From contig CAMCKZ010000021.1 in NCBI GenBank assembly GCA_945875545.1, positions 1-42,068 of the forward strand: DNA of 42,068 bases. The letters are read 5' to 3'. How positions within the stretch are numbered: position 1 is the first letter of the stretch; each line of letters opens with the position of its first letter. Made by a program: the position numbers and the translations under genes. This DNA is from Polyangium aurulentum (GTDB taxonomy: Bacteria > Myxococcota_A > Polyangia > Polyangiales > Polyangiaceae). Below, piece after piece: positions 8,251 through 42,068 of this stretch. The notes under the pieces were generated by a model. It worked only from the letters and a program-made list of their open reading frames with translations. It ran no database searches and was not told where the DNA came from.

Positions 8251-8676
8251 GTGGCACATACGATAACGGTACGCGGGCTAGGGGCCAGTCCAGGGCGCGT
8301 GAAGGGTGTGCTCGTTTTGTCCGTCGCCGAGGCGGCGCGGCTCGGTCCCGCGAGGCCGGTCATTTTGGTCTTGCGCGATTGCCGGTCCGATGACGCGCGC
8401 GCCCTGGTAAATGCCGCGGCATTGGTGTCGGTGCGGGGCGGCGTGACGGGGCACGGGGCCATCATCGCGCGGGCCCTAGGCAAGCCGTGCATCGTCGCGT
8501 GCAGGCACTTGGATCCCAAACCTGCGGACGGCGAACTCGTGGTTCGGCCCGAGGGCGGGGAGCCGGTGGTCATTCGCGAGGGCGACGAAGTGGAGGTCGA
8601 CGGCGCGAAGGGCCTGATAACCGTGACCCTGGCCCTGGCCCTGGCCCTGGCCCTGGCCGGGGACAAGGTTGTGTAG
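8251..8676 (+). CDS. Stand-alone PEP-utilising-enzyme swivelling (phosphohistidine) domain protein
   Basis: The 141-residue protein consists essentially of the mobile phosphohistidine domain found in PEP synthase, pyruvate phosphate dikinase and enzyme I. The signature GGVTGHGAIIARALGKPCIVAC places the candidate phospho-acceptor at His68. Opening residues VRGLGASPGRVKGVLVL match the start of that domain. No ATP-grasp or PEP-binding domain is attached, so it could be a phosphocarrier or a partner of a separate enzyme. The GTG start has GAGG (8240-8243) seven bases upstream. The C-terminus carries (Leu-Ala)5, encoded by a six-base tandem repeat. It lies 15 bases after glyS and may be co-transcribed. 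A full-length relative with the same domain sits at 37249-39993. Confidence 0.8.
   Translation: MAHTITVRGLGASPGRVKGVLVLSVAEAARLGPARPVILVLRDCRSDDARALVNAAALVSVRGGVTGHGAIIARALGKPCIVACRHLDPKPADGELVVRPEGGEPVVIREGDEVEVDGAKGLITVTLALALALALAGDKVV
8627..8658 (+). repeat. Hexanucleotide tandem repeat CCCTGG x5 plus CC, inside a coding region
   Basis: Five perfect CCCTGG units and a partial sixth encode the alternating Leu-Ala tail of the swivelling-domain protein. Unit number changes would alter the protein by two residues per unit without shifting the frame. Confidence 0.95.
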
Positions 8677-9751: not shown

Positions 9752-9772
9752 AAGGCCGACGCGCGCTTAGCG

Positions 9773-20629: not shown

Positions 20630-20781
20630 GACCCGGAGGGTACGCCCGTTTGAGGACGAGGCCGAGGCCCTCTGAATTCGCTGGAGCTCCGCCGAGTCCT
20701 TCTGCATGATGCAAAGCCAGCGTCGCCGGGCGCCTCGACAAGTGGGCCGGGAATCGCGAACGACTGGAAGCCAGGACCACC

Positions 20782-24653: not shown

Positions 24654-24703
24654 ACGAAAAACGGGTAATGCCCGGGCACGCTTTTTTTACTGTTCGGAGT
24701 CCC

Positions 24704-26625: not shown

Positions 26626-28308
26626 TTGAAGTTATTGAGTCGACCAGCACAGACTGTGCCTGTCAGGCCACCCACGGATCGACGGCCAGCGGCGCGTCTG
26701 GCCCTGGCGGCGGCCCTTGCCCTCACGGCCGCGTGCGTCACGACCCGCGGGTCACTTTGGTACGAGACAGGAACAGCGAGCACCTGGAAAAGCCAAGAAT
26801 TTCAATGGCTTGAGACCGCTCTTGCGGATATCTTACGGGCGCGAGACATGGAGCCGATTGCGGACACGCGGATGGCAGCCGGGGCCTTGCAACTGGCTGA
26901 ATTCATTGCGAATGACGCGCATCACCGCCGACCAAGCACGGCCTCGGCGGATCGCCTGATGCGCGTTGCGGGGGTGCTCGAACACCGGTGGAATTTCTCC
27001 TCCTGGCGGGGGGTCGGTCCGCCGCCGGCCGCCGCGCTCGCCGCCTCTTTCGCGCGAAGCCTTGATGCGCCCACCGGAGCGAAAGTCGTGGCCTTTGGCG
27101 TTGCACGTGCCCCGGGCGCGGACGGCCGCGAAGTCGTGGTTTTGGCCTGGGCCCAGCGATTTGCGCACTTCGATGGGCCTATTGCGCGGGTGGCCGCCGT
27201 CGGGGACGTGATTCGTCTGCGCGGTGCGGGACGGGGACTTTCGGGCAATGTGTTACTCGCGGTGACCGCTCCAAACGGTGTTCTTTCGAACAAAACCGCC
27301 GGCGACGCGGGCCACATTGACGCCGAGGTTGTCGTCTCGCAACCCGGGCTTTGGCAGGTGGAACTCGTGGGAACCTTGGCGAATGGGCCCTTTCCAGTCG
27401 CGAATTTCCCCGTTTACGTGGCCGTTTCCGACGACCCAAAGGCGACGCCGCGGGATCATATGATTGTATCTGAATCCGCCTTTCGAGAAGAACTAATGAC
27501 CCTCGTCAACGCGGCGCGGAAGACCGCCGGGTGCCCAAGCCTTGACGACGACGCGCGCTTGACCGTTGCCGCCCGGGCTCACAGCCTTGCCATGCGCGAC
27601 GAAAAGTTTTGGGGCCACGAGTCGCCGCGGACGGGTTCTCCCTCGGATCGCGTGCGCTTCGCGGGCCTTTTGACCACGCGTTCCGGCGAAAATATCGCCC
27701 GCGGGCCTTCCGCCCAGGACGTGCACGAGAGCTTGATGGACAGCCCCGGCCATCGCTCCACCATTCAGTCGTGCGTATACACGCACGTTGGTCTGGGCAT
27801 CGTCGCGGGAGCCGCCCACGACGCGTCTGATTGGATTGTTACCCAAGAGTTCGCCCGTATCAATCCCACTATTGCAATCGGTGACGCGCTGCGAGACATC
27901 CTTTCTCGGGCGAATCACCAGCGCGCCGCGGCTGGACTCGCGGAGCTTCGTTGGGAGCTTCGCCTGGCGGAAGCCGCACAATTTGCAGCGGAATCGATGG
28001 TGAGCCCGGCTGCCGACGCCAACGCCACCGGCAAGTTGGCCCTCGCGCAATTGGCCAAGTCAGACGTGTGGTTTGCGCATTTAAATGCAAGTTGGGGCGA
28101 GCGCGATTCCATCGAGTCCACTTTGTCGCTAAAGTCCTTTTCCGCGACCGAGGTAGATAGCATTGGAATAGGAGTCGTTCAGGCGAGTTTAACCGGTAAG
28201 CCCACAAATCAATTGTTCGTCGTCGTCATGACAGCCCAAAGCGGATCGCGGCGGCAAAGCCATCCCGCGCGGCCACTTGCCCCGCAACAAAACCCGAAGG
28301 CCCCGTGA
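26626..28308 (+). CDS. CAP/SCP-domain lipoprotein
   Basis: The protein (up to 560 residues) has a lipoprotein signal ending ALTAAC (Cys37 from the TTG). The N-terminal half (about 40-280) is unrecognised and ends in an Ig-like or bacterial pre-domain (LRGAGRGLSGNVLLAVTAPNG). A CAP domain follows at about 285-400: LVNAARKTAGCPSL, VAARAHSLAMRDEKFWGHESP, GENIARGPSAQDVHESLMDSPGHR. A second region (about 425-530: LSRANHQRAAAGLAELRWELRLAEAAQFAAESM) looks like a degenerate second CAP copy. CAP proteins are secreted and have varied roles, including lipid binding. The start may be the TTG at 26626 or the GTG at 26656. Its stop overlaps the start of the MFS gene. Confidence 0.75.
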   Translation: MKLLSRPAQTVPVRPPTDRRPAARLALAAALALTAACVTTRGSLWYETGTASTWKSQEFQWLETALADILRARDMEPIADTRMAAGALQLAEFIANDAHHRRPSTASADRLMRVAGVLEHRWNFSSWRGVGPPPAAALAASFARSLDAPTGAKVVAFGVARAPGADGREVVVLAWAQRFAHFDGPIARVAAVGDVIRLRGAGRGLSGNVLLAVTAPNGVLSNKTAGDAGHIDAEVVVSQPGLWQVELVGTLANGPFPVANFPVYVAVSDDPKATPRDHMIVSESAFREELMTLVNAARKTAGCPSLDDDARLTVAARAHSLAMRDEKFWGHESPRTGSPSDRVRFAGLLTTRSGENIARGPSAQDVHESLMDSPGHRSTIQSCVYTHVGLGIVAGAAHDASDWIVTQEFARINPTIAIGDALRDILSRANHQRAAAGLAELRWELRLAEAAQFAAESMVSPAADANATGKLALAQLAKSDVWFAHLNASWGERDSIESTLSLKSFSATEVDSIGIGVVQASLTGKPTNQLFVVVMTAQSGSRRQSHPARPLAPQQNPKAP

Positions 28309-29519
28309 TGCGGACTGTGACCGCATCTGCACGGCTTCGTTCGCCCTTGCCGCCCACGGTTATTGCCCTCGGAATAACAAGCTTTTTCACAGACTTAGGC
28401 GCGGAAATGATCTTTCCGCTGCTGCCCATGTTCGTCGCCACCCTGGGCGCCAATCCCGCGTTCATCGGTCTCGTCGAAGGCCTCGCAGACGCAGGCGCGA
28501 GCATCTTGAAGCTCGCCATGGGCTGGGCCGCAGACAAGTTTGCCCATAAGAAGCCGTGGGTTCTTTTCGGATATGGACTCGCCGCGTTTGTGCGTCCATT
28601 GGTATTTTTTGCAACCGCGCCTTGGCAGGTGCTGGCGATACGCCTGACGGACCGCGTTGGAAAGGGCCTCCGCTCTACCCCACGAGATGTACTCTTGGCG
28701 AACGCGGTTTCACCGGAACAGTCAGGGCGCGCTTTCGGGTTTCATCGGGCGATGGACCATGCGGGCGCGGTCGTCGGGCCCATCGTGGCGAGCGCGTTGC
28801 TTGCGTGCGGCGTGCCGCTGCGCTTCGTTTTCGCGTCGGCGCTTGTGCCCGGCCTTTGCGCGGTCGTCGCCGTTTTGACCGTAAAAGAACGCGCGACGGC
28901 GAGGGCGGCCGAGGAGCGTCGCGCTACGACGACGGCCGGTCGCGAGGACGAACCGGTTCCCGGGTCGCTCAAGCAATATCTTGCAATCATTTGCCTTTTT
29001 GCCCTGGGAAATTCCACAGATGCGTTCTTGCTCTTGCGCGCCCATAGCATAGGCATTTCAATACTATCGCTGCCGTTTGTTTGGTCCGCCTTTCACGTGG
29101 TCAAGGTCGTGGTCGCGTATTTCGGCGGCTCGTGGTCCGATCGCCTGCCCCGGCATCGCCTCGTGGTGGCGGGCTGGGTGACGTACGCTTTGGTGTACCT
29201 CGGTTTCGCTTTCGCCAAGCAGACGTGGCATATTTGGGGGCTATTTTTGGTCTATGGTGCGCACCATGGCCTTTGCGAGCCCGCAGAGAAGGCCATGGTC
29301 CGCGATCTCGCGCCGGGCTCAGCGCTGGGGCGAGCGTTTGGGCTTTACAATTTCTCTGTGGGCATCATGGCCCTGCCCGCCGGCCTGCTCACCGGGTGGC
29401 TTTGGCAGGCATGGGGCCCCGTCGTGGCGCTCGGCGCGGGGGCTGCTACGGCGGGCGCGGCGACCGTTGCGCTGCTCGCATGGGGCGGCGCGCAGCGTCG
29501 GGTTATTTCTTCGGCGTGA
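28305..29519 (+). CDS. MFS transporter
   Basis: The 404-residue inner-membrane protein has about twelve hydrophobic segments in two halves separated by a charged loop (KERATARAAEERRATTTAGREDE). The loop after helix 2 reads GWAADKFAHKKPWVLFG, the MFS motif-A region, and RLTDRVGKGLRSTPRDVLL resembles a subgroup of MFS exporters. The substrate cannot be inferred. The GTG at 28305 (directly followed by an ATG) overlaps the stop of the CAP gene, indicating coupling. The 3' end overlaps the convergent RND exporter gene by 17 bases. Confidence 0.85.
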   Translation: MMRTVTASARLRSPLPPTVIALGITSFFTDLGAEMIFPLLPMFVATLGANPAFIGLVEGLADAGASILKLAMGWAADKFAHKKPWVLFGYGLAAFVRPLVFFATAPWQVLAIRLTDRVGKGLRSTPRDVLLANAVSPEQSGRAFGFHRAMDHAGAVVGPIVASALLACGVPLRFVFASALVPGLCAVVAVLTVKERATARAAEERRATTTAGREDEPVPGSLKQYLAIICLFALGNSTDAFLLLRAHSIGISILSLPFVWSAFHVVKVVVAYFGGSWSDRLPRHRLVVAGWVTYALVYLGFAFAKQTWHIWGLFLVYGAHHGLCEPAEKAMVRDLAPGSALGRAFGLYNFSVGIMALPAGLLTGWLWQAWGPVVALGAGAATAGAATVALLAWGGAQRRVISSA

Positions 29520-31872
29520 CCATGGGCTTCCACGCGAGAAGGAGCACCGGGGTCATGAAGAGATCCGCAAAAACGGCCGACGCGAGGGAGATGGCGAGCA
29601 GGGTTCCGAGGTGATGGAGGCCCACGAACTCACTCGCATTTAGCGTGAGAAAACCCAGGGAAACCGCGGTTGCGGTGATGAACATGGGCATGCCCGTGGA
29701 CGTCAATATTTCCTTCACAGCGATGGCGTGCGCGTCTTTTTCCCCTTGGCCCAAGAGCTCGGCGAGGCGCTCGCGAAAGCGCGCCAAAAACTGAATCGTG
29801 TCGTCGTCGGCGACGACCAACGTGATCGAAAAAACGATGACCGTGGAAGGCTTCACGTCGATGCCAAGGGCGGCCATCGCGCCCAGCGTCAAGAGCAGCG
29901 GCGACAGGTTCGGCACGAGCGCAATCAGCGCCAACCGCCACGACCGCAGCACAAAGAGAAACACGATAAACGAGGAAATAACCGCGCCGGCGAGGGACTT
30001 GGTAAGACCGCCGACGAGACTGTCGTAGATGCCATCGGCAACTCCGTAAATGCCCGTCACGCGCGCGCGCACGCCCGCGGCCTTCGCGTGTTCGTCGAGC
30101 CACGGCTTAAAGTCGTCGAGGAATTTTTTCGCCTGCGACGAGCCGTTGTCGGGAACGAGCGCCACCACCGCGGCCGAATCGTGATCCGTCGAAAGCACAT
30201 CGCGCAAGGCCTCACGGTCTTCGACCGCGTTCAGCTCCTTCACCGCGAGGCTTCGCTTGTCGGGGATTGGAGAGTTCTTCGCGACGTCTTCGCCTGCAAA
30301 TAGCCTGTGCGCCTTCTTCACGGCCCGCACATGCGAACCGGCGTTTTTGACGAGATCGCCGTGCTTGGTTTCGAGCTCGCGGACAACGTCGTCGAGAAAT
30401 TGAAGAACCTTGGGCTCGAGCATCGCTCCGTTCGGCGCGTACCCGGACTCGGGCAAACCCTCGACGTGGATGGCCATCGGAACACTCCCACCGGCACGCG
30501 CTTCGAGACGACGAATATTTTCCCACAGAGGTGAATGGGGCTTGAGGTCGTCGTAGGAAAAATACTCTTTACCAACGCCGCGTGATGCCACGGTGGCCAG
30601 GGCCAAAATGGCCAAAAATACAGCCGTTACGCGCTTTGGCGCATGCGTCACGACACCGTGAACCCACGCGATAAAGCCCGCCACAAGCCGCGCAATCCCT
30701 TTTTCTTGAGACGCGCCGTCGGCGGAATTCGCAGCAGCGGCCGGAGCCTCGGGCTTCATCAGCGTCATGGCGAGGGGCAGCACCGTGACGTTCGCGAGCC
30801 ACGTGAGGAGCATGCCGCCGGCCGTGACGAGACCAAACTGCTGAATCATCGTCATGTCCGCGAGGGCCAAACTGACGAACCCCGCGGCGATCGTAATTTC
30901 GGTCAGTAGGCACGGCCAAGCGCTCTCTTTGATGGCGTGGGAAACGGCCTCGGGCCAGGGTTTTCCCTTGGCAAAGCTCGCGCGCGCGTCGTTCACAATG
31001 TGCACGGTGTCGGACACCGAAATGATCATGCAAATGGTCGGCACGAGCTGCGTCATGATCTGCAGCGGCACGCCGATGGCCGCCATGAAGCCGAGCGACC
31101 AATGCACCGCCACGAGAATGGTCGCGAGGGCAGCCATCACCGCGCCCACACTTCGGAAGGTCGCGTAGAGCAGCGAGAGAATGACTGCGAGCGCCAACGG
31201 AAAGAGAATGGCGAGATCTTTGTTCACCAAAAACGTGAACGAGGGCCGAATGATGGGCAGCCCTGAGAGGGTGAGGCGCTCGTCGACGCCTTGGCCTTTG
31301 GCCAACGTTTCATGTGCAATAACAATGGCTTGCGCTTTTTTCAAAAAAGCTTGACGTGACTCTTCTTTCGAGGCCACGTCTTTTTGCAGCGTGACCGAAA
31401 CGTTCATCGAGCCGCCGTCCGGGTGCGCCAGGCCGTAGCGAAAAAGAGGGTCGGTGGTGGCGGTGTGCTTCGCCGCCTGAAGGTCCGCCGCCGACATCTC
31501 AAGGGGAAAAAGTTTCGTCAGCGCGATGCCCGCCTCGTCGCCGGTCACGTCTTGGGTGGAGCCCGGGCCCTGCACCGAGGCCACTTCGGGCATCGCTTTG
31601 AACGCAGCTTCGAGCGCGCGAATGCGTCCGAGGCCGCCCTTCGTGAAGACGTCCGGTGCCTCAAAAACCACGATCGCCTGCGCATCGTCGAAGGCAAAGG
31701 TCTCGCGGTAGTGGTCGTAGTCCGTGCGGCTTTGGTGCTGCTTCGGAAAGAAGAGCTCGATCGAGAGGTCGACCCTCAGACGCATGAGAGCCGTGCCTGA
31801 CAACAGCAAGAGGGCGACGACGAAGGCCAGACCACGACCGCGCTTTTCAATGAGAGAGAGAAGAAAGGCCAT
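29503..31872 (-). CDS. RND/MMPL-superfamily exporter
   Basis: The 789-residue protein has the duplicated RND layout: TM1 (about 14-34), a large periplasmic loop (35 to about 225), a block of five helices (about 228-400), then TM7, a second periplasmic loop and a second helix block ending in LLLAWKPMVTPKK. Motifs such as IISVSDTVHIVNDARASF and the second-half VVADDDTIQFLARFRERL carry the conserved acidic residues of proton relay in this family. It belongs to the group of predicted hydrophobe exporters (COG1033, HpnN-like), which move lipids. It follows the outer-membrane protein and LolA-like genes on the same strand, 146 bases downstream, suggesting one trans-envelope system. Confidence 0.87.
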   Translation of the reverse strand: MAFLLSLIEKRGRGLAFVVALLLLSGTALMRLRVDLSIELFFPKQHQSRTDYDHYRETFAFDDAQAIVVFEAPDVFTKGGLGRIRALEAAFKAMPEVASVQGPGSTQDVTGDEAGIALTKLFPLEMSAADLQAAKHTATTDPLFRYGLAHPDGGSMNVSVTLQKDVASKEESRQAFLKKAQAIVIAHETLAKGQGVDERLTLSGLPIIRPSFTFLVNKDLAILFPLALAVILSLLYATFRSVGAVMAALATILVAVHWSLGFMAAIGVPLQIMTQLVPTICMIISVSDTVHIVNDARASFAKGKPWPEAVSHAIKESAWPCLLTEITIAAGFVSLALADMTMIQQFGLVTAGGMLLTWLANVTVLPLAMTLMKPEAPAAAANSADGASQEKGIARLVAGFIAWVHGVVTHAPKRVTAVFLAILALATVASRGVGKEYFSYDDLKPHSPLWENIRRLEARAGGSVPMAIHVEGLPESGYAPNGAMLEPKVLQFLDDVVRELETKHGDLVKNAGSHVRAVKKAHRLFAGEDVAKNSPIPDKRSLAVKELNAVEDREALRDVLSTDHDSAAVVALVPDNGSSQAKKFLDDFKPWLDEHAKAAGVRARVTGIYGVADGIYDSLVGGLTKSLAGAVISSFIVFLFVLRSWRLALIALVPNLSPLLLTLGAMAALGIDVKPSTVIVFSITLVVADDDTIQFLARFRERLAELLGQGEKDAHAIAVKEILTSTGMPMFITATAVSLGFLTLNASEFVGLHHLGTLLAISLASAVFADLFMTPVLLLAWKPMVTPKK

Positions 31873-32018: not shown

Positions 32019-33845
32019 TCAGAACTTGCCCCGCGCCATCACGAACATTTGCGTATTGCGCGCGTAATACGCCGCATAGGAGCCCTCATCGCCCTCGAGC
32101 CACACGAGCCCGGCCCGCACATCCCACGTGGCCTCTTTCCAGGAAATTTGCGGTCGAAGAAGATACCCGCGCGGGTCCAAAACCGCGGCTCCGCGAAGCT
32201 CCACCTCGAGCTTGTCGCCAAACGTGTGCCGGACAAGCGCGCCCTGCGACAGGGTCGTCTCGCGAATGAAGAGGGTCGAGGCTCCCGCCCCGAGGTCGAT
32301 CCATTGCTGCGCGCTGGTTTCGAGAAGCACGAACGTGCCGTGCTCTCCCGGTTGCCACTCGATACCCACGACGCCGGTGGCCACAGGCGACAATCCCGCG
32401 CTGAAATCGCTGCGCAAAAAAGGCGCTCGCGAGTCGTATGCTCCCTCTATTTTCAGCACCACAGGCCCAAGCGCCCTAGCCACATCAAAGCCCAGATGCA
32501 TACGCCTTACGTACGTCGACATGACAAGGGGTGTTCCCTTCTCCGTCGCATCCAAAAAGGGCTTGGCTAGGCCCCCTACGGTCGTGAGGTCCGCGGAGGC
32601 GAAAGCCGCGGGCAGGTCTGGAGAGACGCGAAAAAATGGCTGCGTATGGAACCCGTAATGGGCGTAGAGCGCGCCGTCAAAACCGCGGGCCTCCCAGGCG
32701 AGGCGGGCCCCGGCGGAGGCCTCGGAAAAGTCCAACCGCGGCTTCTGAGTTTGCCCAAGAATTCCCGTGAATTCAGAGCGAAGCGTGGGGTCTACAAGCT
32801 TTCCAACGCGGTTCATCAGGTAGCGAACAGCGGCAGGCGCCGAAGGCTGAAGGAGCGCGCCGTTGGACCCCCAAATATCGAACGTATCGGGTGTAAAAAA
32901 AGGGGCCACGTGAAGCTGCAGCGAGGCCTGAGCGCCAAGGGGAAAGTCGGCGCGAGCGGCCATGGCGGGAAGGCGCTGCAGGGCGACGTCGGTCGTGAAA
33001 AGATCGCGAACGTCGCGCGCGTTCACGACATCGTTCGGGGCAAAGGCGTCGCTCTTTCCCCAGGAAATTCGCTGAAGACCGATGCGAAGGTCCATCACGC
33101 GCCCGTAGACACCAAGCCAGCCTTCGCGCACCACGCCTTCGAAACTTGTGCGCGGCGGACCGCCCGACGGGCCGTCAAAAGCCCCCGCGGTTGGCGACGC
33201 GTTGGCGTACACGCCGTAGCTCGCCGATGCCGCCACCGCGGCCTCAAAAGTCTTGCCGCGGCGGTAGCGCGCGCGCAGGTACCCTTGCAGATCGCCCGTC
33301 ACGCGATCGTAGGGCAACACCATCGCGTCTGCATCCGGAGCCCGGCGGTCGCTCTCGCCCATCACGCTGCTGCGAAAGCGGGCCCAACCTGAAAATTCGT
33401 AGCGACCTTCTTCCGCGGCCTGAGGCTTTACGGGCGGGGCGGCAGGCGCCGGCGTGTCCGATTCAAATACCTCCACGTCGTCATCGCCGACCTTTTGCGG
33501 ATCCTGTTTCGCGTCCTGTTTCGCGTCCTGTTTCGCGTCAGTGGACGACGCCGCGGTGCCCTCGCCAAGACCTTTGCCTTGAGGCAACGGCCCGGGCCTC
33601 TCGTTGGCCTTCGGAGGGAACGTTTTCCTGGGAACGGGCTCGTCATCGAGCTCGATGACCTCGGAGGGAAAGGCCCTCGTCGGTGCCCGCTTTGGTGCCC
33701 GCTTTGGCATCTTTTCGCGCATGCGACCCGGCGGGGGCCGCACGGGATACGGCGCCGCGGCTGCGGCATGGAAGGAAGTCCACACGGATACGGCCGCCAC
33801 GCCCGCCACAAAGGCGCCTGCGTGCCGCCGAAAACTCGCGTGCAT
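32019..33845 (-). CDS. Outer-membrane beta-barrel protein, DUF1302-like
   Basis: The 608-residue protein has a signal peptide (AGAFVAGVAAVSVWTSFHAAAAA), then a long low-complexity region rich in Lys, Arg, Pro, Asp and Gln (about residues 35-140, with KRAP and DAKQ repeats), then a beta-barrel ending in Phe (RNTQMFVMARGKF). The segment LRIGLQRISWGKSDAFAPNDVVNARD is characteristic of DUF1302-type outer-membrane proteins. In other bacteria these are found beside COG1033-type RND exporters and a periplasmic lipid-binding protein, as here. The start at 33845 lies seven bases after the stop of the LolA-like gene; the longer frame to 33896 would overlap that gene. Likely role: outer-membrane channel for a hydrophobic cargo. 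Confidence 0.75.
   Translation of the reverse strand: MHASFRRHAGAFVAGVAAVSVWTSFHAAAAAPYPVRPPPGRMREKMPKRAPKRAPTRAFPSEVIELDDEPVPRKTFPPKANERPGPLPQGKGLGEGTAASSTDAKQDAKQDAKQDPQKVGDDDVEVFESDTPAPAAPPVKPQAAEEGRYEFSGWARFRSSVMGESDRRAPDADAMVLPYDRVTGDLQGYLRARYRRGKTFEAAVAASASYGVYANASPTAGAFDGPSGGPPRTSFEGVVREGWLGVYGRVMDLRIGLQRISWGKSDAFAPNDVVNARDVRDLFTTDVALQRLPAMAARADFPLGAQASLQLHVAPFFTPDTFDIWGSNGALLQPSAPAAVRYLMNRVGKLVDPTLRSEFTGILGQTQKPRLDFSEASAGARLAWEARGFDGALYAHYGFHTQPFFRVSPDLPAAFASADLTTVGGLAKPFLDATEKGTPLVMSTYVRRMHLGFDVARALGPVVLKIEGAYDSRAPFLRSDFSAGLSPVATGVVGIEWQPGEHGTFVLLETSAQQWIDLGAGASTLFIRETTLSQGALVRHTFGDKLEVELRGAAVLDPRGYLLRPQISWKEATWDVRAGLVWLEGDEGSYAAYYARNTQMFVMARGKF
33503..33538 (-). repeat. Three 12-base tandem repeats within the DUF1302-like gene
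   Basis: CCTGTTTCGCGT is repeated three times on the plus strand and encodes DAKQ repeats in the linker after the signal peptide. A second short repeat nearby (about 33686-33712) encodes the KRAP repeats. Both make the linker length prone to change. Confidence 0.85.
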
Positions 33846-33852
33846 ATTGCAG

Positions 33853-34665
33853 CTATTCTTTCTCAAGAGCGCGCGCGGTAAACTCCTCGTCGGCAATCGT
33901 TCCCTCGGGTTTGACCTCGTCGAGAATGAGTTCTGTCGTGCGATTTTCCACGTGGTTTGTCACGAGGCTCTTCGTGATGAAGAGCTTGCCCTCGATCTTT
34001 TTCGCCTCTTTCGCCTCGATGGTTTTGACCGCTTGCCCGTTCGCCCCAAACGCGACGGTCTTCAGAGGAACGAAGTCTGTCGTGCGCGCCCACACTTCGA
34101 GGTGCCCGTACGGCGACTCACCCTTGGGCAACACATCGAGGTGGTAGCAATCGGCCTTTCCGACTTTCTCGATGCCCACAAGCTTGGCGGTGCCATCGCG
34201 GAGGTCGCGGCGGTCCATGTCGGCGTAAGAAAAGTCGGTCCCGGAGAACGACGCTTTTCGCGATGCCCCGGCAATTCGCTTGGTTTTCTTGAGTTCCGGA
34301 ATCCACAAAAAGCGGTCATCGTCGCCGTCGGATTTCTCGATCTGCAAGAAGGCCTGGCCCGCCAAATCGGCCGGTGCCGTGAAGCGCATAAGGCTTTTTG
34401 TGAGCCGCGGACCCGCCTTTCGCGACTTCGATTGAAAGGCCATCTCGCGCGGCGCGCCGCCTTGGGCCTTCACAATGAGACGGGCTTTCACATACGCGCC
34501 GCCAGACCCCCACGCGTCGTTCTCCAAAAGTTTTTCGACGATGGAGCTCGCCGAGGGATCCGCCGCCCGCGCGGGCGTGTGAACCAAAACCAGCGAATTT
34601 GCCGCCAATAGAGCGACAACAGAGCGCCGCCATGAGCCTTGCCGTCGAACGATACGATGGGCCAT
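33853..34665 (-). CDS. LolA-like periplasmic outer-membrane lipoprotein-sorting protein
   Basis: The 270-residue product has a signal peptide (RRSVVALLAANSLVLVHTPARA) and a single LolA/LppX-type beta-sheet domain. The stretch FLWIPELKKTKRIAGASRKASFSGTDFSYADM is typical of the 'outer membrane lipoprotein-sorting protein' family that accompanies RND exporters. Such proteins shield acyl chains while crossing the periplasm. The frame is open to 34779, but the upstream part is His/Arg-rich; the ATG at 34665 has GAAGGT seven bases upstream. It is the first gene of an apparent operon with the DUF1302-like barrel and the RND exporter. Confidence 0.85.
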   Translation of the reverse strand: MAHRIVRRQGSWRRSVVALLAANSLVLVHTPARAADPSASSIVEKLLENDAWGSGGAYVKARLIVKAQGGAPREMAFQSKSRKAGPRLTKSLMRFTAPADLAGQAFLQIEKSDGDDDRFLWIPELKKTKRIAGASRKASFSGTDFSYADMDRRDLRDGTAKLVGIEKVGKADCYHLDVLPKGESPYGHLEVWARTTDFVPLKTVAFGANGQAVKTIEAKEAKKIEGKLFITKSLVTNHVENRTTELILDEVKPEGTIADEEFTARALEKE

Positions 34666-34820
34666 ACGATACCTTCGTGGGTGATGCCGGCGGGGGTGTG
34701 CGCGGCGGATCTTGAGGTGTTGCCTTACAAAAGCCTCGGAGCGGCCCGCGTGACGCGGCGTGAACTGTGCACCGTGCACCGTGCAGATTAACGCAAGCCC
34801 GCTCCAAGCCGAGGGCTTTA

Positions 34821-34964: not shown

Positions 34965-36398
34965 ATGACCATGAACTGCCTCACCATGGCGGCGGACCAA
35001 TTGGAGTCCCGCGGCGCGCAGATGGCCCTGTGGACGGAAGACGACGGGCCGGTCTCCTTCGCCGAAATGTTCGTTCTCACGCGCCGCGCCCAGGCCCTGC
35101 TCCAGCGCCAAGGCATTGGCCCCGGCGATCACGTGCTCCTTTTCGCCCTGCCCGGCCCGCGCCTCTACGCCATGATCATGGGCCTCCTCGGGCTTGGGGC
35201 CGCAGTGATGCTTGTAGAGCCCTGGATGCCCATAGAGCGCGTCGATCACGTGGTGCGCAGTACGAGACCCAAGGCCTTCTACGCGGGCTGGCTAGGCCGC
35301 CTGTGGGGCCTGCGCGTGAAGGCGATTCGCGAGATTCCGCTGCACCTCGGCCTCAAAGATTTTGACGCAGAAAAACCCCTTGACAAATTGCATATTCATG
35401 CATGCACCGGAGACGAGCGCGGCATCGTCACGTTTTCATCGGGCACGTCGGCGGCACCCAAGGGCGTTGTGCGAACCCATCGTTACATGACGGACATCAC
35501 GGAGATTCTGAACAAGTACGACCCGCCGGAGCAGCAACACGGGCCGGACCTCTGCCTCTTCGCGAACCTCGCCACGTTGCACATTGCCAATGGGCGCTCG
35601 GCGTATTTGATTCCGCATCACTGGAAGGGGCGGAGCCTTAAAAAGCTTGAGGCCGCCGCCGTGGCCGGAGGCCAAGAGCCCGTGTCGCTTATCTGCGGTC
35701 CAGCTTTTCTGAAGCATTTGCTGACGGTTGGCGGTTTTCCGAAGCTCGAACACATTCACGTCGGCGGCGCCCTCACGCCAACGTCGCTGTTTGAAGAGGC
35801 CTTCGCGCGGTGGCCCCACGCCCGCTTCACGCACATTTATGGGGGCAGCGAGGTTGAGCCCGTGGCGTTCGCCGATGGGCGCGTCGCCGTCGCAGAGAGC
35901 AAGGCCGCCGGTCTTTTTCACACGCTGTTTGTGGGCAACCCCATCGAAGAGCTGGCGATCGACATGCACGACGAAAAAGGCCCGTGGGTTGCTGGGCCAA
36001 ACGTATGCCCCGAGTACGTGGGCGCGAACGACGAAAACAAGAAGTACAAGCGCCGCGACGCCGACGGCCGCCTTTGGCATTTCATGGGCGATCGCCTCAA
36101 AAAGACCGACGCCGGTTACTGGTACGCGGGCCGCTCGTTTCAAGAGCCGGGCATCTTCGAGCTCGAAGAAAAGCTGTTTGCGCTCCTCCAGCGCGACAAG
36201 TTTTTTCTCCATCGCGATGAAAAAGGAGTGCTCTGCGTGATCGGCGAGGGCGTCAAAAAAGACCTCGCGAAAATGCAAGTACTGGCGCCCGAAGTGCTTC
36301 GCGCATTTGAGGTCACCCTCGTCGTAGACCGTCGTCATCGTGCACGAATCGATCGTGCCCACGCCCTCGGAAAGGCTGCAAAATGGCTCGCTGGCTAA
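34965..36398 (+). CDS. AMP-dependent acyl ligase (acyl-CoA synthetase-like)
   Basis: The enzyme belongs to the ANL superfamily, which activates carboxylic acids as acyl-adenylates. At 477 residues it is shorter than the usual 520-560. Motifs: phosphate loop TFSSGTSAAPKG (156-167), A5-like YGGSEVEP (292-299), and the ribose-binding Asp in FMGDRLKK (373-380). The C-terminal VVDRRHRARIDRAHAL resembles the OleC-type ending, but the position of the usual catalytic Lys appears to be Arg461. The substrate may be a fatty acid. The ATG has AGGA seven bases upstream; a second ATG lies six bases later. Its end overlaps the UbiA-family gene by 16 bases, and it leads a four-gene run. Confidence 0.85.
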   Translation: MTMNCLTMAADQLESRGAQMALWTEDDGPVSFAEMFVLTRRAQALLQRQGIGPGDHVLLFALPGPRLYAMIMGLLGLGAAVMLVEPWMPIERVDHVVRSTRPKAFYAGWLGRLWGLRVKAIREIPLHLGLKDFDAEKPLDKLHIHACTGDERGIVTFSSGTSAAPKGVVRTHRYMTDITEILNKYDPPEQQHGPDLCLFANLATLHIANGRSAYLIPHHWKGRSLKKLEAAAVAGGQEPVSLICGPAFLKHLLTVGGFPKLEHIHVGGALTPTSLFEEAFARWPHARFTHIYGGSEVEPVAFADGRVAVAESKAAGLFHTLFVGNPIEELAIDMHDEKGPWVAGPNVCPEYVGANDENKKYKRRDADGRLWHFMGDRLKKTDAGYWYAGRSFQEPGIFELEEKLFALLQRDKFFLHRDEKGVLCVIGEGVKKDLAKMQVLAPEVLRAFEVTLVVDRRHRARIDRAHALGKAAKWLAG

Positions 36399-37252
36399 TC
36401 TTCTTGAAAGAGCGCACGCCCATCGCGCTGCTGCTCCCGGTCGTCTTCGGCGTGTACTATTCGGCGCAGGCCGGCACGCAAAAACCCGGCTCGCTTTTCG
36501 CGTTCCTCGGCGCGCTCATTGGCCTCACGGGTTTTCTCGTGCTGGCCCGGCTGATGGACGAAAAGAAAGATTACCACAAAGACCTCGTGGCTCACCCGGA
36601 GCGCCCGCTGCCCCGCGGCTTGCTCACGGTGGCCGAGGTCGATGTGGCCATTTTGCGAAGTACGTGGGCCCTTTTTGGCGTCGCCGCAGCCTTCGCAGCC
36701 CTTGGGAATATCCCCGCCGGCGTTGGTTTCGCCGTCACCGTTGGCTACCTCTGGCTCATGTACCGCGAGTTCTATGTGGGCGAGTGGCTGGGGGAATACC
36801 CTATCCCGTATGCGGTAAGTCATCAGCTAGTCGTATGGCCGCTGTATGCGTACGTGTTTGCGCTCTTCGACCCTTCGAGCCTCGTCTCGAAACTCACCCT
36901 TGCCTACGGCCTTTGCACCATGGGTGCCTCCATGAGTTTGGAGATCACGCGCAAGCTCGACCCCCAAGCTCACCCCGCGCTAAAGACCTATTTGGTCATG
37001 TACGGCCCGGCGAAAACCTTCGCGCTTACCCTGGTTTTTGTGCTACTTGCGGGCTGTGGCGCGCATCTCCTAGGCCTCGAAAAACTCTTGTGGCCGGCCG
37101 AAGCTCTTCTCGTCCTTGGCGCCTCCACGGTCTTTTGGAAGCCCAGTGCGTTCAAGGCCGTTGAGGGACTTTCGGCCCTCTCGGTTCTCATTCATCTCTT
37201 CGGCCTCGCCATTGCCCAATGGGCAGGCTTCCCGCTCCCGGTGCATCCATGA
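36383..37252 (+). CDS. UbiA-family prenyltransferase
   Basis: The 289-residue integral-membrane protein has about eight or nine helices. UbiA enzymes transfer a prenyl group from a diphosphate, bound through Mg2+, to an acceptor. The first Asp-rich motif is DEKKDYHKD (residues 59-67), followed by AHPERPLPRG as in the subgroup with a DExKD signature. The second half has SLEITRKLDPQ in place of the usual second Asp motif. The acceptor is unknown; quinone, lipid or glycerol phosphate acceptors all occur in the superfamily. Its start lies inside the acyl-ligase gene and its stop overlaps the next ATG (ATGA, 37249-37252), so all three are likely translated together. Confidence 0.85.
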   Translation: MARWLIFLKERTPIALLLPVVFGVYYSAQAGTQKPGSLFAFLGALIGLTGFLVLARLMDEKKDYHKDLVAHPERPLPRGLLTVAEVDVAILRSTWALFGVAAAFAALGNIPAGVGFAVTVGYLWLMYREFYVGEWLGEYPIPYAVSHQLVVWPLYAYVFALFDPSSLVSKLTLAYGLCTMGASMSLEITRKLDPQAHPALKTYLVMYGPAKTFALTLVFVLLAGCGAHLLGLEKLLWPAEALLVLGASTVFWKPSAFKAVEGLSALSVLIHLFGLAIAQWAGFPLPVHP

Positions 37253-39993
37253 CCCCAGACTCCTTCTCGGTGCTTCTTGCCTCCGCCTCTGACGAATTGT
37301 TTGTGGCCCAAGGTGGCGGCAAAGCCAGGAATTTGGCTAAGCTCGTGAAGCTTGGGCATCGGGTTCCCGAGTTCTTTTGCGTGCCGGTTCCCTTCTTTGA
37401 TTCCTTCGTAGAACTCAATGGCCTGCAGGTGACCGTGCCGCCCGAGGGCGAGCTCGCAACCCTCGCCGAAGACGTCGACCGGCGCTTTGTCGCGGGCACG
37501 TTTCCGCAAGCCTTGCGCGACGCGATCGCGGCGGCTCTCGAGGCCCACGGCCTTCACAAAGGGTTTGTCGCGGTGCGCTCTTCGGGCCTCGACGAAGACT
37601 CCATCGAGCACAGTTTTGCCGGGCAATTTAGCTCGTATATGTACCGCCAAGGCGTCGACGACGTCATCGATGCCCTGAAGCGATGTTGGGCCAGCGGCTA
37701 TTCGGAACGGGCTCTTTCCTACCGCCGCGAGCGCGGGCTTACCGTGAGCAACATTCGCGTCGGCGTCGTGGTGCAACGCATGGTCGATGCGGAGGTTGCG
37801 GGCGTGGCATTCTCGCGCAACGCCATTGCTTTTTTGGACCGCGATCGCGCCATGGTTTCGAGCGTGTGGGGTCTCGGCGAGGGTCTCGTATCGGGAGAGC
37901 TCGATGCAGACTCTTTCCTGGTAAATCGCGATGGATCCAAGGTCGAAGCCACCATCGTCGACAAAGAACATGCCCTCCGCCAAGCGCCCGAGGGAGGCCT
38001 TCAAAAAGTCGCCGTGGTCGAGGAGCAGCGAAAGGTTTCATCGCTCACCGACGCCCAGGCCATCGAAGTTGCGCTGCTCGTCGTGAAGCTCGAAAAGGCC
38101 ATGGGCATCGCGCAAGATTGCGAGTGGGCCATCGTTGGCGGGCTTCTCTATTTGCTCCAAACGCGGCCCATCACAAACCTCCCGCCCGACGGCATTTTTG
38201 ACCCTGAGATTTCAGGACGCGAGCCAATTCTCTGGGATAACTCCAACATCATCGAGTCGTTCTGTGGCGTGACAACCCCCCTCACCTTCAGCCACGCATC
38301 GCGCGCCTATGCGGCCGTGTACGAGGTTTTCGCGCGGGTCATGGGTGTGCCCGAGGCGATGATCCAAGAGCACATTCCGATGTTCCGCAACATGCTCGGC
38401 TTCGTGCGGGGGCGCATCTATTACAACCTCGTTTCTTGGTACCGCTTGATCTTTCTGTTTCCGGGGTCGTCCACGAATTCGCAATTCATGGAAACCATGA
38501 TGGGCACGAAAGAGGGGCTAAAACCTGAGCTTGCGGCACTTTTCGAGTTCACCAAAAACCCGCCCAAGTACTCGGCGATCGAGCTCGTCTCGCTGGTGCT
38601 CAAGTCGGTGGGCCGCTTCGCAACGATCAATTCGATCATCGACGACTTCATGAAGAACGTCGCCCGCCGCTACGACCAGACCATGGCGATGAACATGGAC
38701 AAGATGTCCCTCGTCGCGGTGTACGACCACTACGAGCTCATAAACAAGGAGCTGCTCTTCAACTGGAAGGCTCCCATCATCAACGACACGCGGGTGATGG
38801 TCTTCTTCGGTCTCCTGAAAAAACTCACAGAAAATTGGGTTATGGAGAAGGCTGGAGACGAGGCCGCGTCGCTGCAAAATGATCTTTTGTGTGGCCAAGG
38901 CGACCTCGAGTCCACGGAGCCAACCAAGGCCTTGATGCGCATCGCCAAGCGCATCGACCAGGGCGACGCGCAGTACCGAAGCTGGTACCTCGGCGCGTCC
39001 AACGAGGAGCGCCGCGCGGCCATCTACGAGAGCGACACGAGCCACGCGGCATCGGTGGCCTTTCGCGCGTTCGTCAACAAGTACGGCTTCCGCTGCGTCG
39101 ACGAACAGAAGCTCGAAGAGCAGGATTTGCACGACGATCCGTCGTTTGCCCTCGAGGCCATCGGCAGTTACGTGGCGCGCAAAACCTACTCCATCGAAGA
39201 GATGGAAAAGCGCGAAGGGGTGATTCGCGATCGGGCCGAGGCCTTGATCCGCGACAAAGTCTCCGGCGTGCGATCCCTCATTTACAACTGGGTCCTCAAG
39301 AACGCGCGCAACGCCGTTCGCGATCGCGAGAACCTTCGGTTTCAACGCACGCGCACCTTCGGCCTCTGTCGCCGCCTCTTTCGCGCCACGGGTAAAAAGC
39401 TCTTCGAACTCGGTGCCATCGATGCGCCGCGAGACGTCTTTTTCCTCACAATTGACGAACTTTCGGGCTTCATCGACGGCCGCGCCACAAGCCTCAACTT
39501 GCGCGGGCTCGCCGCGCTTCGCAAGGCCGAGTACGTCAAGTACCAGGACGACCTTCCGATCCCCGATCGCTTCATCACCTACGGTGCCGCCGGCGCCTCC
39601 ATGCAGCACATCGGGGTTCTCCAAGACGCCGACCTCTTGAAGAACCTCCGGCACAGCGACGATCCGGACGTGCTCTACGGAACCCCGTGCTGCCCGGGCC
39701 AAGTCGAAGGCGTTGTGCGCGTTGTCAAGCAAATGCAAGACGCCTCCGGATTGAACGGAGAAATCCTGGTCAGCGAGCGCACCGATCCGGGCTGGGTGCC
39801 TCTCTATCCCTCGTGTTCTGGACTCCTCATTGAACGCGGTTCGCTCCTCTCGCACTCGGCGGTTGTGGCGCGTGAACTCGGCCTGCCCACGGTGGTTGGC
39901 ATCAGCGGCGGCCTCATGTTGAAACTCAAAACAGGCATGCGCGTGCGCATCGACGCCGGGCGCGGCGAAGTAAGGATTCTGCGCGATGAGTAA
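37249..39993 (+). CDS. PEP-synthase/rifampin-phosphotransferase-like enzyme
   Basis: The 914-residue protein has three parts. The N-terminal PPDK-type ATP-grasp domain (to about 320) shows GGGKARNLAKL, VAVRSSGLDEDSIEHSFAGQ, GVAFSRN and LLQTRPIT. The central part (about 330-810) is helical and matches no family I recognise. The C-terminal swivelling domain has GSLLSHSAVVARELGLPTVVG with phospho-acceptor His869. There is no PEP-binding TIM-barrel, so it is unlikely to be a true PEP synthase. This ATP-grasp/unknown/His layout is that of rifampin phosphotransferase, in which the middle domain binds the small-molecule substrate and phosphate passes via the His. The ATG at 37249 (overlapping the UbiA stop) is preferred to 37219. 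It overlaps the next gene by eight bases. Confidence 0.85.
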   Translation: MTPDSFSVLLASASDELFVAQGGGKARNLAKLVKLGHRVPEFFCVPVPFFDSFVELNGLQVTVPPEGELATLAEDVDRRFVAGTFPQALRDAIAAALEAHGLHKGFVAVRSSGLDEDSIEHSFAGQFSSYMYRQGVDDVIDALKRCWASGYSERALSYRRERGLTVSNIRVGVVVQRMVDAEVAGVAFSRNAIAFLDRDRAMVSSVWGLGEGLVSGELDADSFLVNRDGSKVEATIVDKEHALRQAPEGGLQKVAVVEEQRKVSSLTDAQAIEVALLVVKLEKAMGIAQDCEWAIVGGLLYLLQTRPITNLPPDGIFDPEISGREPILWDNSNIIESFCGVTTPLTFSHASRAYAAVYEVFARVMGVPEAMIQEHIPMFRNMLGFVRGRIYYNLVSWYRLIFLFPGSSTNSQFMETMMGTKEGLKPELAALFEFTKNPPKYSAIELVSLVLKSVGRFATINSIIDDFMKNVARRYDQTMAMNMDKMSLVAVYDHYELINKELLFNWKAPIINDTRVMVFFGLLKKLTENWVMEKAGDEAASLQNDLLCGQGDLESTEPTKALMRIAKRIDQGDAQYRSWYLGASNEERRAAIYESDTSHAASVAFRAFVNKYGFRCVDEQKLEEQDLHDDPSFALEAIGSYVARKTYSIEEMEKREGVIRDRAEALIRDKVSGVRSLIYNWVLKNARNAVRDRENLRFQRTRTFGLCRRLFRATGKKLFELGAIDAPRDVFFLTIDELSGFIDGRATSLNLRGLAALRKAEYVKYQDDLPIPDRFITYGAAGASMQHIGVLQDADLLKNLRHSDDPDVLYGTPCCPGQVEGVVRVVKQMQDASGLNGEILVSERTDPGWVPLYPSCSGLLIERGSLLSHSAVVARELGLPTVVGISGGLMLKLKTGMRVRIDAGRGEVRILRDE

Positions 39994-41080
39994 CCGAACC
40001 ATCGAGACCCTTTCTGCCGCTTTGGGCACTCGGACCGAAAGCGTTTTTCTCAACGAATTCGCTGCGTTTCCCCTCGCTTGCCGCGGGGAAGAATATCGCA
40101 TTGCGCTCTCGTCTGTAGGCGCAACGCTGTTCATGATGAACGCCGGTCTCACAGAGGTGCGCGAGGCCTGGCTCGTCAAGAGCGAGGGCCGCGTCGTGGG
40201 TCGTGTTCACGCGAACACGAGCTGGACGCGAGAAGGTGTAGGATACATCGGGTTTTACGAAGTCGACCTGCGCGAAACCGATCATGCCGACGTCGCGCGC
40301 GAGCTTCTTGGCGCCGCCACGACGTGGCTCGCGGGGCACGGCGCGCTCAAAGTCTATGGTCCGATCGACTGGTGCACCTGGTTTTCGTACCGTTTTCAGA
40401 CGGCCCAACCCGAGGGCTACAAGTCCGGGCGCTTTTTTTGGTGGGAGCCCGTGAACCCGCCGGAGTTCCTCACCCACTGGGAGGCCGCGGGTTTTGTCGC
40501 CGAGGAGCATTACCACACGAAGGCCGCGGAGCACAGCGCGACGGCCCCCATGTCGCTGACCTCAGACCTCATGAAGCCCGCCTACGATGCCGCTGTCGCC
40601 GAGGGTTACCGCTTTCGGCCGATGAAAGACGGCGACGATTTCATGAGCGAGGCCGAGGGACTCTACGAGGTAAACGCCAGCGGATTTGCTGGTAATTTTC
40701 TCTTTGAGCCCATCCCGTTCGCGCTCTACAAACAGACGATTTCGGGCATCGTGGGCAAGGTCGATTTTAGCCTTTCGTTTTGGGTCCACTCCAAAGACGA
40801 CCGCCCCGTCGGGTACATTTATTGTTTCGCCGACGGCGAGTACGCCGTTGGCAAGAGCGTCGTCATCATGCCAGGCCATCGTGGAAAGGCCATTTCGCCG
40901 GCGCTTATGCACCTCACGAGCCATCGGGCCGTCGAGCTCGGGATTCCAACGGCCGTGAGTGCGTTGATACGCCGCGGCAACGTGAGCGACCGCATTACCA
41001 GGACTGCCGAGGAGCACGCCGTGGCGCCGTGGCGCCATGAGTACGTGCTCTACGGCAAGAGCGTTACGCCGATTTCGTGA
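39986..41080 (+). CDS. GNAT-like protein, probable two-domain acetyltransferase fold
   Basis: The 364-residue protein appears to hold two GNAT-like halves. The first (about 20-170) contains EAWLVKSEGRVVGRVHANTSW and VGYIGFYEVD, then ARELLGAATTWLAGHGALKVYGPID, the layout of uncharacterised GNAT proteins that start with a similar 'YGP' segment. The second (about 205-360) contains DDRPVGYIYCFADGEYAVGKSVVIMPGHRGKAISPALM, with a pyrophosphate-binding-like RGKAIS. An acyltransferase role on a pathway intermediate is inference. The gene overlaps the kinase-like gene by eight bases and the convergent P450 by 17 bases. Confidence 0.65.
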   Translation: MSNRTIETLSAALGTRTESVFLNEFAAFPLACRGEEYRIALSSVGATLFMMNAGLTEVREAWLVKSEGRVVGRVHANTSWTREGVGYIGFYEVDLRETDHADVARELLGAATTWLAGHGALKVYGPIDWCTWFSYRFQTAQPEGYKSGRFFWWEPVNPPEFLTHWEAAGFVAEEHYHTKAAEHSATAPMSLTSDLMKPAYDAAVAEGYRFRPMKDGDDFMSEAEGLYEVNASGFAGNFLFEPIPFALYKQTISGIVGKVDFSLSFWVHSKDDRPVGYIYCFADGEYAVGKSVVIMPGHRGKAISPALMHLTSHRAVELGIPTAVSALIRRGNVSDRITRTAEEHAVAPWRHEYVLYGKSVTPIS

Positions 41081-42068
41081 CGCGCAGCTTGATGCTGCCA
41101 GGGCAGCGCAGCGTGAGATTGTTGACGTAGACGGGGGCCTCGGCCACTTCGAAGTGCGCGTAACGCTTGACGAATTCGCTGATGGCGACGATGGCTTCCA
41201 TTCGGCCGAGGCCCGCGCCGGCGCAAAAATGCGGCCCCGAGCTGAAGGACAAATGCTTGGCTCCGGGCTTGCGCGTGATGTCGAAAACATCCGGGTCCGG
41301 AAAGACGGACGCGTCGCGGTTTGCCGCCGCAAGAAACACCGACACGCGTTTGTCTTTTTCAAGGCGCACGCCGTTCCAGTCGAGGTCTTCGGAGACAAGC
41401 CTTCCGGTTCGGTGAATGGGCGGGTCGTAACGGAGAATTTCGTCAACGGCACCATCAATAAGAGCTGGATTTTCGCGGAGAAGCGCCGCTTGCGCCGGAT
41501 GGCGAGCGAGGGCGAGGAGGCCATTGCCAATGAGCGCCGTCGTCGTTTCGTGACCGGCGGCGAGGATCAAAATCGCGTTGCCGATGATGTCTTCGTCGGA
41601 AATATCGGGATGCTCGTCGCGCAGCTGCATCAGGTACGAGAGCAGATCTTCGCGCGGCGTCTCGCGGCGATCGGCGATGGCTTTGTTGAAGTACGCGTGA
41701 AATTTCGCCGTGGCCTCAAGGGCCGCAACGGCCACCGCGACATCGGTCGTGCGATCGATGAAGGCTGCGACGGCGTTCGTCCAAGCCTTGAGTTGCGTTG
41801 CATCGGCCAGGGGAAGACCAAGCATTTCGGAAATCATCGTGATGGGCAGTGGAAACGAAAGCTGCCTCACCACGTCGATCACGCCGTCATCGGGCATGGC
41901 CTCGAACAGGTGCCCGGCGACGACCTCGATGCGCGCTCGCCAGTTCTTGATCACGCGCGTGTCGAACGCCTTGACGACGGGCGTTCGCAACCGGCCATGC
42001 TCCGGCGGGTCGAGGTAGACCATGAAGTGCCCCATGATATCGAGCAGGGGCTTCAACCGCACCCGTGT
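41064..42068 (-). CDS. Cytochrome P450 (N-terminus beyond the window)
   Basis: The frame is open to the end of the window, so the N-terminus (roughly the first 70-90 residues) lies outside. The visible 334 residues contain the main P450 marks: AAGHETTTALI in the I-helix (oxygen activation), ILR of the ExxR motif in DEILRYDPP, PDPDVFDITRKPGAKHLSF, and the haem-binding loop FSSGPHFCAGAGLGRMEA with the thiolate Cys. It is a soluble, bacterial-type P450 (CYP107/CYP108-like), which hydroxylates or otherwise oxidises small molecules and needs a separate redox partner, none of which is in view. It converges on the GNAT-like gene with a 17-base overlap. Confidence 0.93.
   Translation of the reverse strand, partial: TRVRLKPLLDIMGHFMVYLDPPEHGRLRTPVVKAFDTRVIKNWRARIEVVAGHLFEAMPDDGVIDVVRQLSFPLPITMISEMLGLPLADATQLKAWTNAVAAFIDRTTDVAVAVAALEATAKFHAYFNKAIADRRETPREDLLSYLMQLRDEHPDISDEDIIGNAILILAAGHETTTALIGNGLLALARHPAQAALLRENPALIDGAVDEILRYDPPIHRTGRLVSEDLDWNGVRLEKDKRVSVFLAAANRDASVFPDPDVFDITRKPGAKHLSFSSGPHFCAGAGLGRMEAIVAISEFVKRYAHFEVAEAPVYVNNLTLRCPGSIKLRVTKSA

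Follow-up and report, generated by a model that had tools for sequence, protein, structure and literature searches.

What do four tightly overlapping genes near one end of a Polyangium aurulentum contig make together, and where does their cluster end? The stretch analyzed here, called the window, is contig CAMCKZ010000021.1 (42,068 nucleotides), one whole contig of a 3.5-Mb genome in 188 contigs. Its operon encodes an acyl ligase (A), a UbiA-superfamily protein (B), a dikinase (C) and an acyltransferase (D). We found that A, B and C travel together across four phyla with E, a DUF3419 protein also encoded in the window, and in most lineages with D. The operon is the core of a widely spread cluster that most likely makes and exports a lipid; we judge the chances to be evenly balanced that the product is an undescribed amino-acid-headed, prenyl- or alkyl-bearing outer-membrane lipid.

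Four overlapping genes form one operon

The four genes of the operon are as follows.

34965-36398, plus strand: A, AMP-forming acyl ligase, 477 aa (Pfam AMP-binding, 80 bits)
36383-37252, plus strand: B, UbiA-superfamily prenyl/alkyl transferase, 289 aa (PF01040, 2.7e-7, 30.6 bits, slightly below cut-off)
37249-39993, plus strand: C, ATP-grasp and phosphohistidine dikinase of the rifampin phosphotransferase (RPH)/PigC type, 914 aa (PPDK_N and PEP-utilizers)
39986-41080, plus strand: D, tandem GNAT acyltransferase, 364 aa (PF00583, 40.5 bits)

Direct reading of the open reading frames (ORFs) and junctions bears out the original prediction of four overlapping genes, with overlaps of 16 bases between A and B, 4 between B and C (ATGA) and 8 between C and D. 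Relatives of A use the second methionine, at 34971. For C, a longer mechanically called ORF starts at 37219; the relatives and the ATGA junction favor 37249.

The gene set recurs in four phyla

Relatives were found by searching genome contigs with B, and came from the same genus, where both matches are metagenome-assembled genomes, from Caldilineaceae, from the gammaproteobacterium SZUA-272 and from a Bdellovibrionaceae bacterium. Every locus for which enough sequence was available has the order A-B-C-D; beyond the genus, identities are about 29-53%, lowest for D. The arrangement is not due to chance: its order is kept in the same-genus metagenome-assembled genome (locus L012), in Caldilineaceae, in Gammaproteobacteria and in Bdellovibrionaceae. 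The overlap of A and B is exactly 16 bases in eight loci (L011, L012, L013, L014, L015, L016, L017 and L019, that of L016 counted from its upstream ATG at 9764), and recurs in myxococcotal, chloroflexotal and gammaproteobacterial relatives. A more distant member, G016, has A and B, with no C or D on its short contig.

Over a broader sample, the A-D genes occur together in Myxococcota, Chloroflexota, Bdellovibrionota and Pseudomonadota. The B profile matched 30 of 377 Myxococcota, 5 of 301 Chloroflexota and 87 of 241 Bdellovibrionota genomes. In the neighborhoods read, C lies beside B in nearly all and E is present in most; A occurs in nearly all Bdellovibrionota loci and D in about half of the loci. 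An MMPL transporter was seen in 17 cluster loci, typically right after E, and a 3-hydroxy-3-methylglutaryl-coenzyme A (HMG-CoA) reductase (HMGR; H) in 8, fused to an APH kinase domain in Myxococcota and in L134 (the fusion is present in clusters L053, L054, L066 and L134). The E homologue lies directly beside A-B-C-D in Caldilineaceae, gammaproteobacterial, alphaproteobacterial and most Myxococcota loci, and the Chloroflexota locus L115 reads H-B-C-E-X-D-A in one run, X being a protein discussed below. DUF3419 genes were found in 29 of the 30 Myxococcota genomes with B versus 76 of the 347 without it (Fisher P = 8e-17, a value that is only a guide since the genomes are related).

A complete six-gene version lies on plasmid NZ_CP121116.1 of Roseinatronobacter sp. 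S2, a cultured alphaproteobacterium from an alkaline spring. Its operon (L163, 523-8507) reads UbiA-C-DUF3419-X-D-A, and every junction overlaps. A search of plasmids with B gave no match; this operon was retrieved by the C and E queries.

The neighborhood is thus conserved in four phyla, and its genes do not sort into separate known pathways. No pathway matching this compact, conserved biosynthetic operon was found, in line with the original prediction. Each protein belongs to a known superfamily, and the combination appears to be undescribed: within the open-access full-text literature, which was the scope of the search, no description of the gene combination or cluster was found. The UbiA operon mentioned in the eLife lipocone paper is another one.

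The cluster extends over about 20 kb

Comparing the neighbors of the relatives' loci revealed the recurrence of E and HMGR. The four genes first proposed as the cluster are therefore too narrow an extent. The functional neighborhood reaches back to 20782, and the cluster is about 20 kb long, made up of A-D, the DUF3419 gene, an HMGR-APH fusion and a lipid-export set. The further features are as follows.

20782-21909, plus strand: E, similar to SAM:3-amino-3-carboxypropyl transferases of the DUF3419/BtaA family (PF11899, 203 bits)
21906-24653, plus strand: H-K, class I HMGR-like domain fused to an APH kinase domain (PF00368, 362 bits; PF01636, 44 bits)
29503-31872, minus strand: M, MMPL/HAE3 transporter of the resistance-nodulation-division (RND) type (PF03176, 110 bits; TIGR00921, 203 bits)
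32019-33896, minus strand: DUF1302 porin-like outer-membrane protein, start uncertain (PF06980, 29.5 bits)
33853-34779, minus strand: LolA-like periplasmic lipid carrier, start uncertain (PF17131, 163 bits)
41064-42068, minus strand: cytochrome P450, cut by the contig end (PF00067, 110 bits), convergent to the operon

E and H-K lie 10 kb upstream of A, and M and the LolA-like gene flank the DUF1302 gene, all three on one strand. The P450 overlaps D by 17 bases at its 3′ end. Its proposed membership stood in part: it is kept at the same place in L012 and lies inside the operon in several Bdellovibrionota clusters, but is absent elsewhere, so that it is probably an accessory gene.

Three other genes of the window were noted in this region. 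A 1,075-aa phosphoesterase-like protein (17723-20950, minus strand) adjoins E; in this genus it could be a cluster member, because a distant relative adjoins the P450 in L012. The gene at 24668-26053 (plus strand) encodes a 461-aa protein that matches the plant STIG1-like cysteine-rich family four times, and the one at 28305-29519 (plus strand) a major facilitator superfamily (MFS) transporter; homologues of the latter occur in cluster loci L103 and L127, in L103 inside the operon.

Proteins A to D keep catalytic features of their superfamilies

A is an AMP-forming ligase, as its first annotation as an acyl ligase implied, and its P-loop, GDR and RHRxRIDR region are conserved in 10 relatives. 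Its best NCBIfam match is the OleC-like PRK09274 (118-147 bits), far under the cut-off, with an OleC model among the next. Judged by these profiles, A falls in the OleC/PRK09274 neighborhood and is not OleC by the curated cut-off: the curated OleC model gave 43 bits for the window protein and 62 bits for L013, versus a cut-off of 900.

B is a divergent UbiA protein. It misses the PF01040 gathering score of 34.2 bits but keeps the first Asp-rich motif and RPLPxG. The motifs DExxDxxxD, RPLPxG and ExxRKxD are conserved in 10 relatives; DExxDxxxD and RPLP are invariant in all 10, and the G that follows is present in at least 9. Archaeal digeranylgeranylglyceryl phosphate (DGGGP) synthase and chlorophyll synthase share the first Asp-rich motif and RPLPxG and are its nearest solved sequences, the closest being DGGGP synthase 6m31 with an E-value of only 7e-5. 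B differs from them in its second motif, ExxRKxD, and no glycerol-1-phosphate pathway genes were seen beside it.

C had been labeled similar to phosphoenolpyruvate (PEP) synthase, a label that gives way to an RPH/PigC-type dikinase. It matches PPDK_N (234 bits) and PEP-utilizers (70 bits) and stops after the phosphohistidine domain. Since the PEP-binding TIM barrel is absent (no Pfam match to PEP-utilizers_C in C), C is not a PEP synthase (PpsA). Its nearest solved sequences, 5hv2 and 5fbs, are titled phosphoenolpyruvate synthase, and we take them to be rifampin phosphotransferases. The catalytic His869 region is invariant and the ATP-grasp residues are kept in 11 divergent copies. C shares with RPH and PigC/RedH the ATP-grasp and swiveling phosphohistidine domains and the lack of a PEP barrel. 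In contrast to them, it scores far under their cut-offs (307 bits versus 999 for the NCBIfam rifampin phosphotransferase model; 342 and 347 bits, over the full length, versus 1300 and 1350 for PigC and RedH) and is in fixed partnership with UbiA and DUF3419 proteins, rather than in drug inactivation or pigment synthesis. It is closer to PRK06241.2-2 (868 of 883 bits) than to PigC or RedH. A stand-alone phosphohistidine (PEP-utilizers) domain protein of 141 aa is encoded far from the cluster (8251-8676, plus strand).

D had been called GNAT-like. By profile match and predicted fold, it is a GNAT acyltransferase in tandem form: its AlphaFold2 (AF2) model (pLDDT 79.6) matches the tandem GNATs 2wpw, 7q3a, MshD and FemX.

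E is related to BtaA and distinct from it

BtaA transfers the 3-amino-3-carboxypropyl group from S-adenosylmethionine (SAM) to the hydroxyl of a lipid. E and BtaA are both DUF3419-family proteins, and the SAM-binding motif SIASAGxN is present in all aligned proteins. In a tree of 61 proteins, a branch with 100/98 support divides the cluster E proteins from the BtaB-linked copies. Because of this split, E is BtaA-like but not BtaA proper. In contrast to the BtaA/BtaB system for betaine-lipid (diacylglyceryltrimethylhomoserine, DGTS) synthesis, it has no BtaB methyltransferase neighbor, and stands instead with UbiA, dikinase, ligase and GNAT genes. The Bdellovibrionota E copies sit on a long branch (1.98 changes per column), which makes them the least certain members. 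Four Myxococcota loci (L174, L176, L181 and L182) hold a further DUF3419 gene, next to that of a CdsA/phytol-kinase-like protein some 480 aa long; the UbiA gene is on another contig.

The cluster HMGR is probably not an ordinary mevalonate enzyme

In a tree, the cluster HMGRs separate from the housekeeping HMGRs that these genomes also encode, with branch lengths that are rough because several housekeeping copies are too divergent to align over their full length. The second HMGR of the window's genome (L051; G000:C20:15625-16734) is too divergent for tblastn alignment with the cluster copy; an unlinked class I copy in Caldilineaceae falls near the cluster copies. In the cluster HMGR the catalytic residues E, K, D and H are intact, but GQD[IV]AC stands in place of the canonical class I motif GQDPAQN. 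Two cluster genomes, G423 and G621, have DXR of the methylerythritol phosphate (MEP) pathway, and the cluster HMGR is their only one. This suggests that it has a role other than isoprenoid precursor supply; an ordinary mevalonate function seems unlikely. A search for HMG-CoA synthase (PF01154) gave no match even in genomes with a housekeeping HMGR; being this insensitive, it is uninformative on the question.

Candidate kinases, reductases and exporters vary between lineages

A candidate lipid-alcohol kinase recurs in three unrelated forms: the APH domain fused to HMGR, X, and, in Bdellovibrionota, what is probably a DAGK-like protein. The kinase domain of the window H-K reads HNDFNPRN and then AYDWE, a pattern as in active APH kinases.

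X has no Pfam or NCBIfam match, and its family rests for that reason on motifs and a moderate fold match. Its RKxxH and KSxxGS motifs agree with the CdsA/dolichol-phytol kinase superfamily. The AF2 fold (pLDDT 87) ranks CdsA 4q2g first (Z 8.6 over 158 residues, root mean square deviation 4.0), 4q2e second (Z 7.8) and CarS 5guf fourth (Z 6.5 over 106 residues, root mean square deviation 3.4); these Z scores are moderate for a helical protein, and the Foldseek E-value is only 3.6e-3. The model suggests that X belongs to the CTP-using members of that superfamily, as a predicted prenol or alcohol kinase. Plant phytol salvage by VTE5 and VTE6 likewise feeds a UbiA enzyme, and a CTP-type prenol-kinase-like X lies beside UbiA in several relatives. 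However, X was not found in the window cluster, which has the APH-HMGR fusion instead, and C, the candidate second kinase, differs from VTE6 in its domains.

The recurring reductase has two forms, the class I HMGR-like H and, in Bdellovibrionota, F9, whose best match is PigE 4ppm (9e-28), with the acyl-acyl carrier protein (ACP) reductase 6jzq at 5e-7. F9 adjoins F12, similar to short-chain dehydrogenases/reductases (SDR) and fatty-acyl reductases.

In the export set, either an MMPL transporter or an FtsX/MacB-type ABC permease recurs together with LolA-like carrier and porin-like proteins. PF17131 (LolA-like) proteins also lie beside E in Bdellovibrionota clusters. The porin-like partner is DUF1302 in the window; F17 of Bdellovibrionota resembles it only by eye. 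The set is like the HpnN/BstA exporters and the LolA/LolCDE system in pairing a permease of either type with a LolA-like carrier, but the transporters score far under the HpnN and BstA cut-offs.

A proposed lipid pathway and its alternatives

The gene set, its order, the conserved catalytic features and the export partners were read directly from the loci; from them we infer an order of reactions, substrates and a product. In the proposed pathway, an acyl thioester would be reduced to an alcohol by the class I HMGR-like enzyme (in Bdellovibrionota by the acyl-ACP-reductase/PigE-like one), or a prenol would be taken over. A kinase would convert the alcohol to a monophosphate, and C could pass the β-phosphate of ATP through its phosphohistidine domain to yield an activated diphosphate, or might activate another intermediate. 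In a reaction like that of archaeal DGGGP synthase, B would then attach the chain to a polar acceptor, and E would add a 3-amino-3-carboxypropyl (homoserine) group from SAM. Finally, A may activate a fatty acid with which D would N-acylate the amine, before export of the finished lipid to the outer membrane.

We counted in favor of this lipid the order kept across phyla, the linkage of E and HMGR, the recurring transporter, the co-occurrence of DUF3419 with B and the Roseinatronobacter operon. Also counted were the LolA-like and FtsX/MacB neighbors, the F9 and X matches, the fold of D and the conserved residues of C and HMGR.

Several points weigh against it. UbiA enzymes as a rule require allylic diphosphates, and it would therefore be atypical for one to transfer an alkyl chain derived from a saturated alcohol. 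Members of the RPH/PigC family also form phosphate esters and carry out C-N or C-C ligations, and hence C need not be a diphosphate-making kinase. The equivalence of the kinases, and that of the reductases, is inferred from gene position and not from activity. Moreover, the alphaproteobacterial clusters and most of those in Bdellovibrionota lack H, some clusters lack D, and several B-C-E-M clusters have neither A nor D nearby; such reduced gene sets may make a simpler product.

Among other explanations, a prodiginine- or tambjamine-like cluster is unlikely. C would then be an ATP-dependent ligase of the PigC/TamQ type that joins the amine or aldehyde of a PigE-like reductase to a second unit, while A activates an acid and B prenylates. 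The full-length matches of C to PigC and RedH and the best match of F9 fit this scheme, and ligases of the A type occur in such pathways, but C falls far short of the PigC and RedH cut-offs and is nearer PRK06241.2-2. No bipyrrole, pyridoxal phosphate (PLP) or carrier-protein genes occur among the neighbors scanned, and the recurring MMPL, LolA-like and FtsX genes point to a membrane lipid.

An Ole-type head-to-head condensation would make A an OleC-like β-lactone synthetase, the α/β-hydrolase fused to A in Bdellovibrio an OleB-like and F12 an OleD-like enzyme, for a hydrocarbon or β-lactone lipid decorated by UbiA and C. We regard this as rather improbable: the curated OleC models are widely missed and no OleA thiolase was seen beside the cluster, against which stand the OleC-like best matches of A and a hydrolase-ligase fusion in L112, itself lineage-specific.

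The resemblance of X to CdsA/phytol-kinase proteins raises a further alternative, a prenylated aromatic or quinone-like cofactor, in which A would activate an aromatic acid and B would prenylate it; X, C and B would then parallel VTE5, VTE6 and HPT of tocopherol synthesis in plants. Plants do have a route of polyprenol kinase plus polyprenyl-phosphate kinase (PMC9782597). This cofactor is nonetheless improbable, as no recurring aromatic biosynthesis or ring methyltransferase genes accompany the cluster, its core DUF3419 gene has no place in such pathways, and the parts consulted of a quinone survey (PMC13386864) do not describe it.

Ordinary local synteny of unrelated genes, which clearly accounts for the RNase D and Tad-pilus genes recurring beside Myxococcota B-C-E clusters (housekeeping neighbors and not members), is scarcely credible for the cluster itself, since the same set occurs in four phyla despite differing orders, strands and flanks, keeps its gene overlaps and is also found on a plasmid of a cultured strain.

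The window cluster appears to be a mosaic

In a tree of C, the window and L012 copies nest in a clade rich in Bdellovibrionota (starred branches, 100/99) with the Caldilineaceae and gammaproteobacterial copies. In contrast, E and HMGR-APH of the window group with Myxococcota in their trees. The cluster thus appears to be a mosaic, in which A-D seem to have been acquired horizontally from a Bdellovibrionota-like donor; of these four proteins the tree covers C, with which A, B and D are presumed to have been transferred.

Implications

The broadest form of the outer-membrane lipid proposal is possible though doubtful: a new lipid class, common in Bdellovibrionota and spread by horizontal transfer, with a class I HMGR as chain reductase, an RPH-type enzyme making the activated donor, a UbiA-made ether or alkyl link and a BtaA-like homoserine headgroup. 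If the proposal is true, a lipid of many predatory bacteria (87/241 Bdellovibrionota and 30/377 Myxococcota genomes with a UbiA-profile match) has so far gone undescribed, and the cluster offers a pathway, open to testing, for a new membrane lipid that has its own route to the outer membrane. The operon of Roseinatronobacter sp. S2 is the system most amenable to experiments. A new job would be added for the HMG-CoA-reductase and rifampin-phosphotransferase folds, and many proteins annotated "phosphoenolpyruvate synthase," "UbiA family" or "DUF3419" would gain a function.

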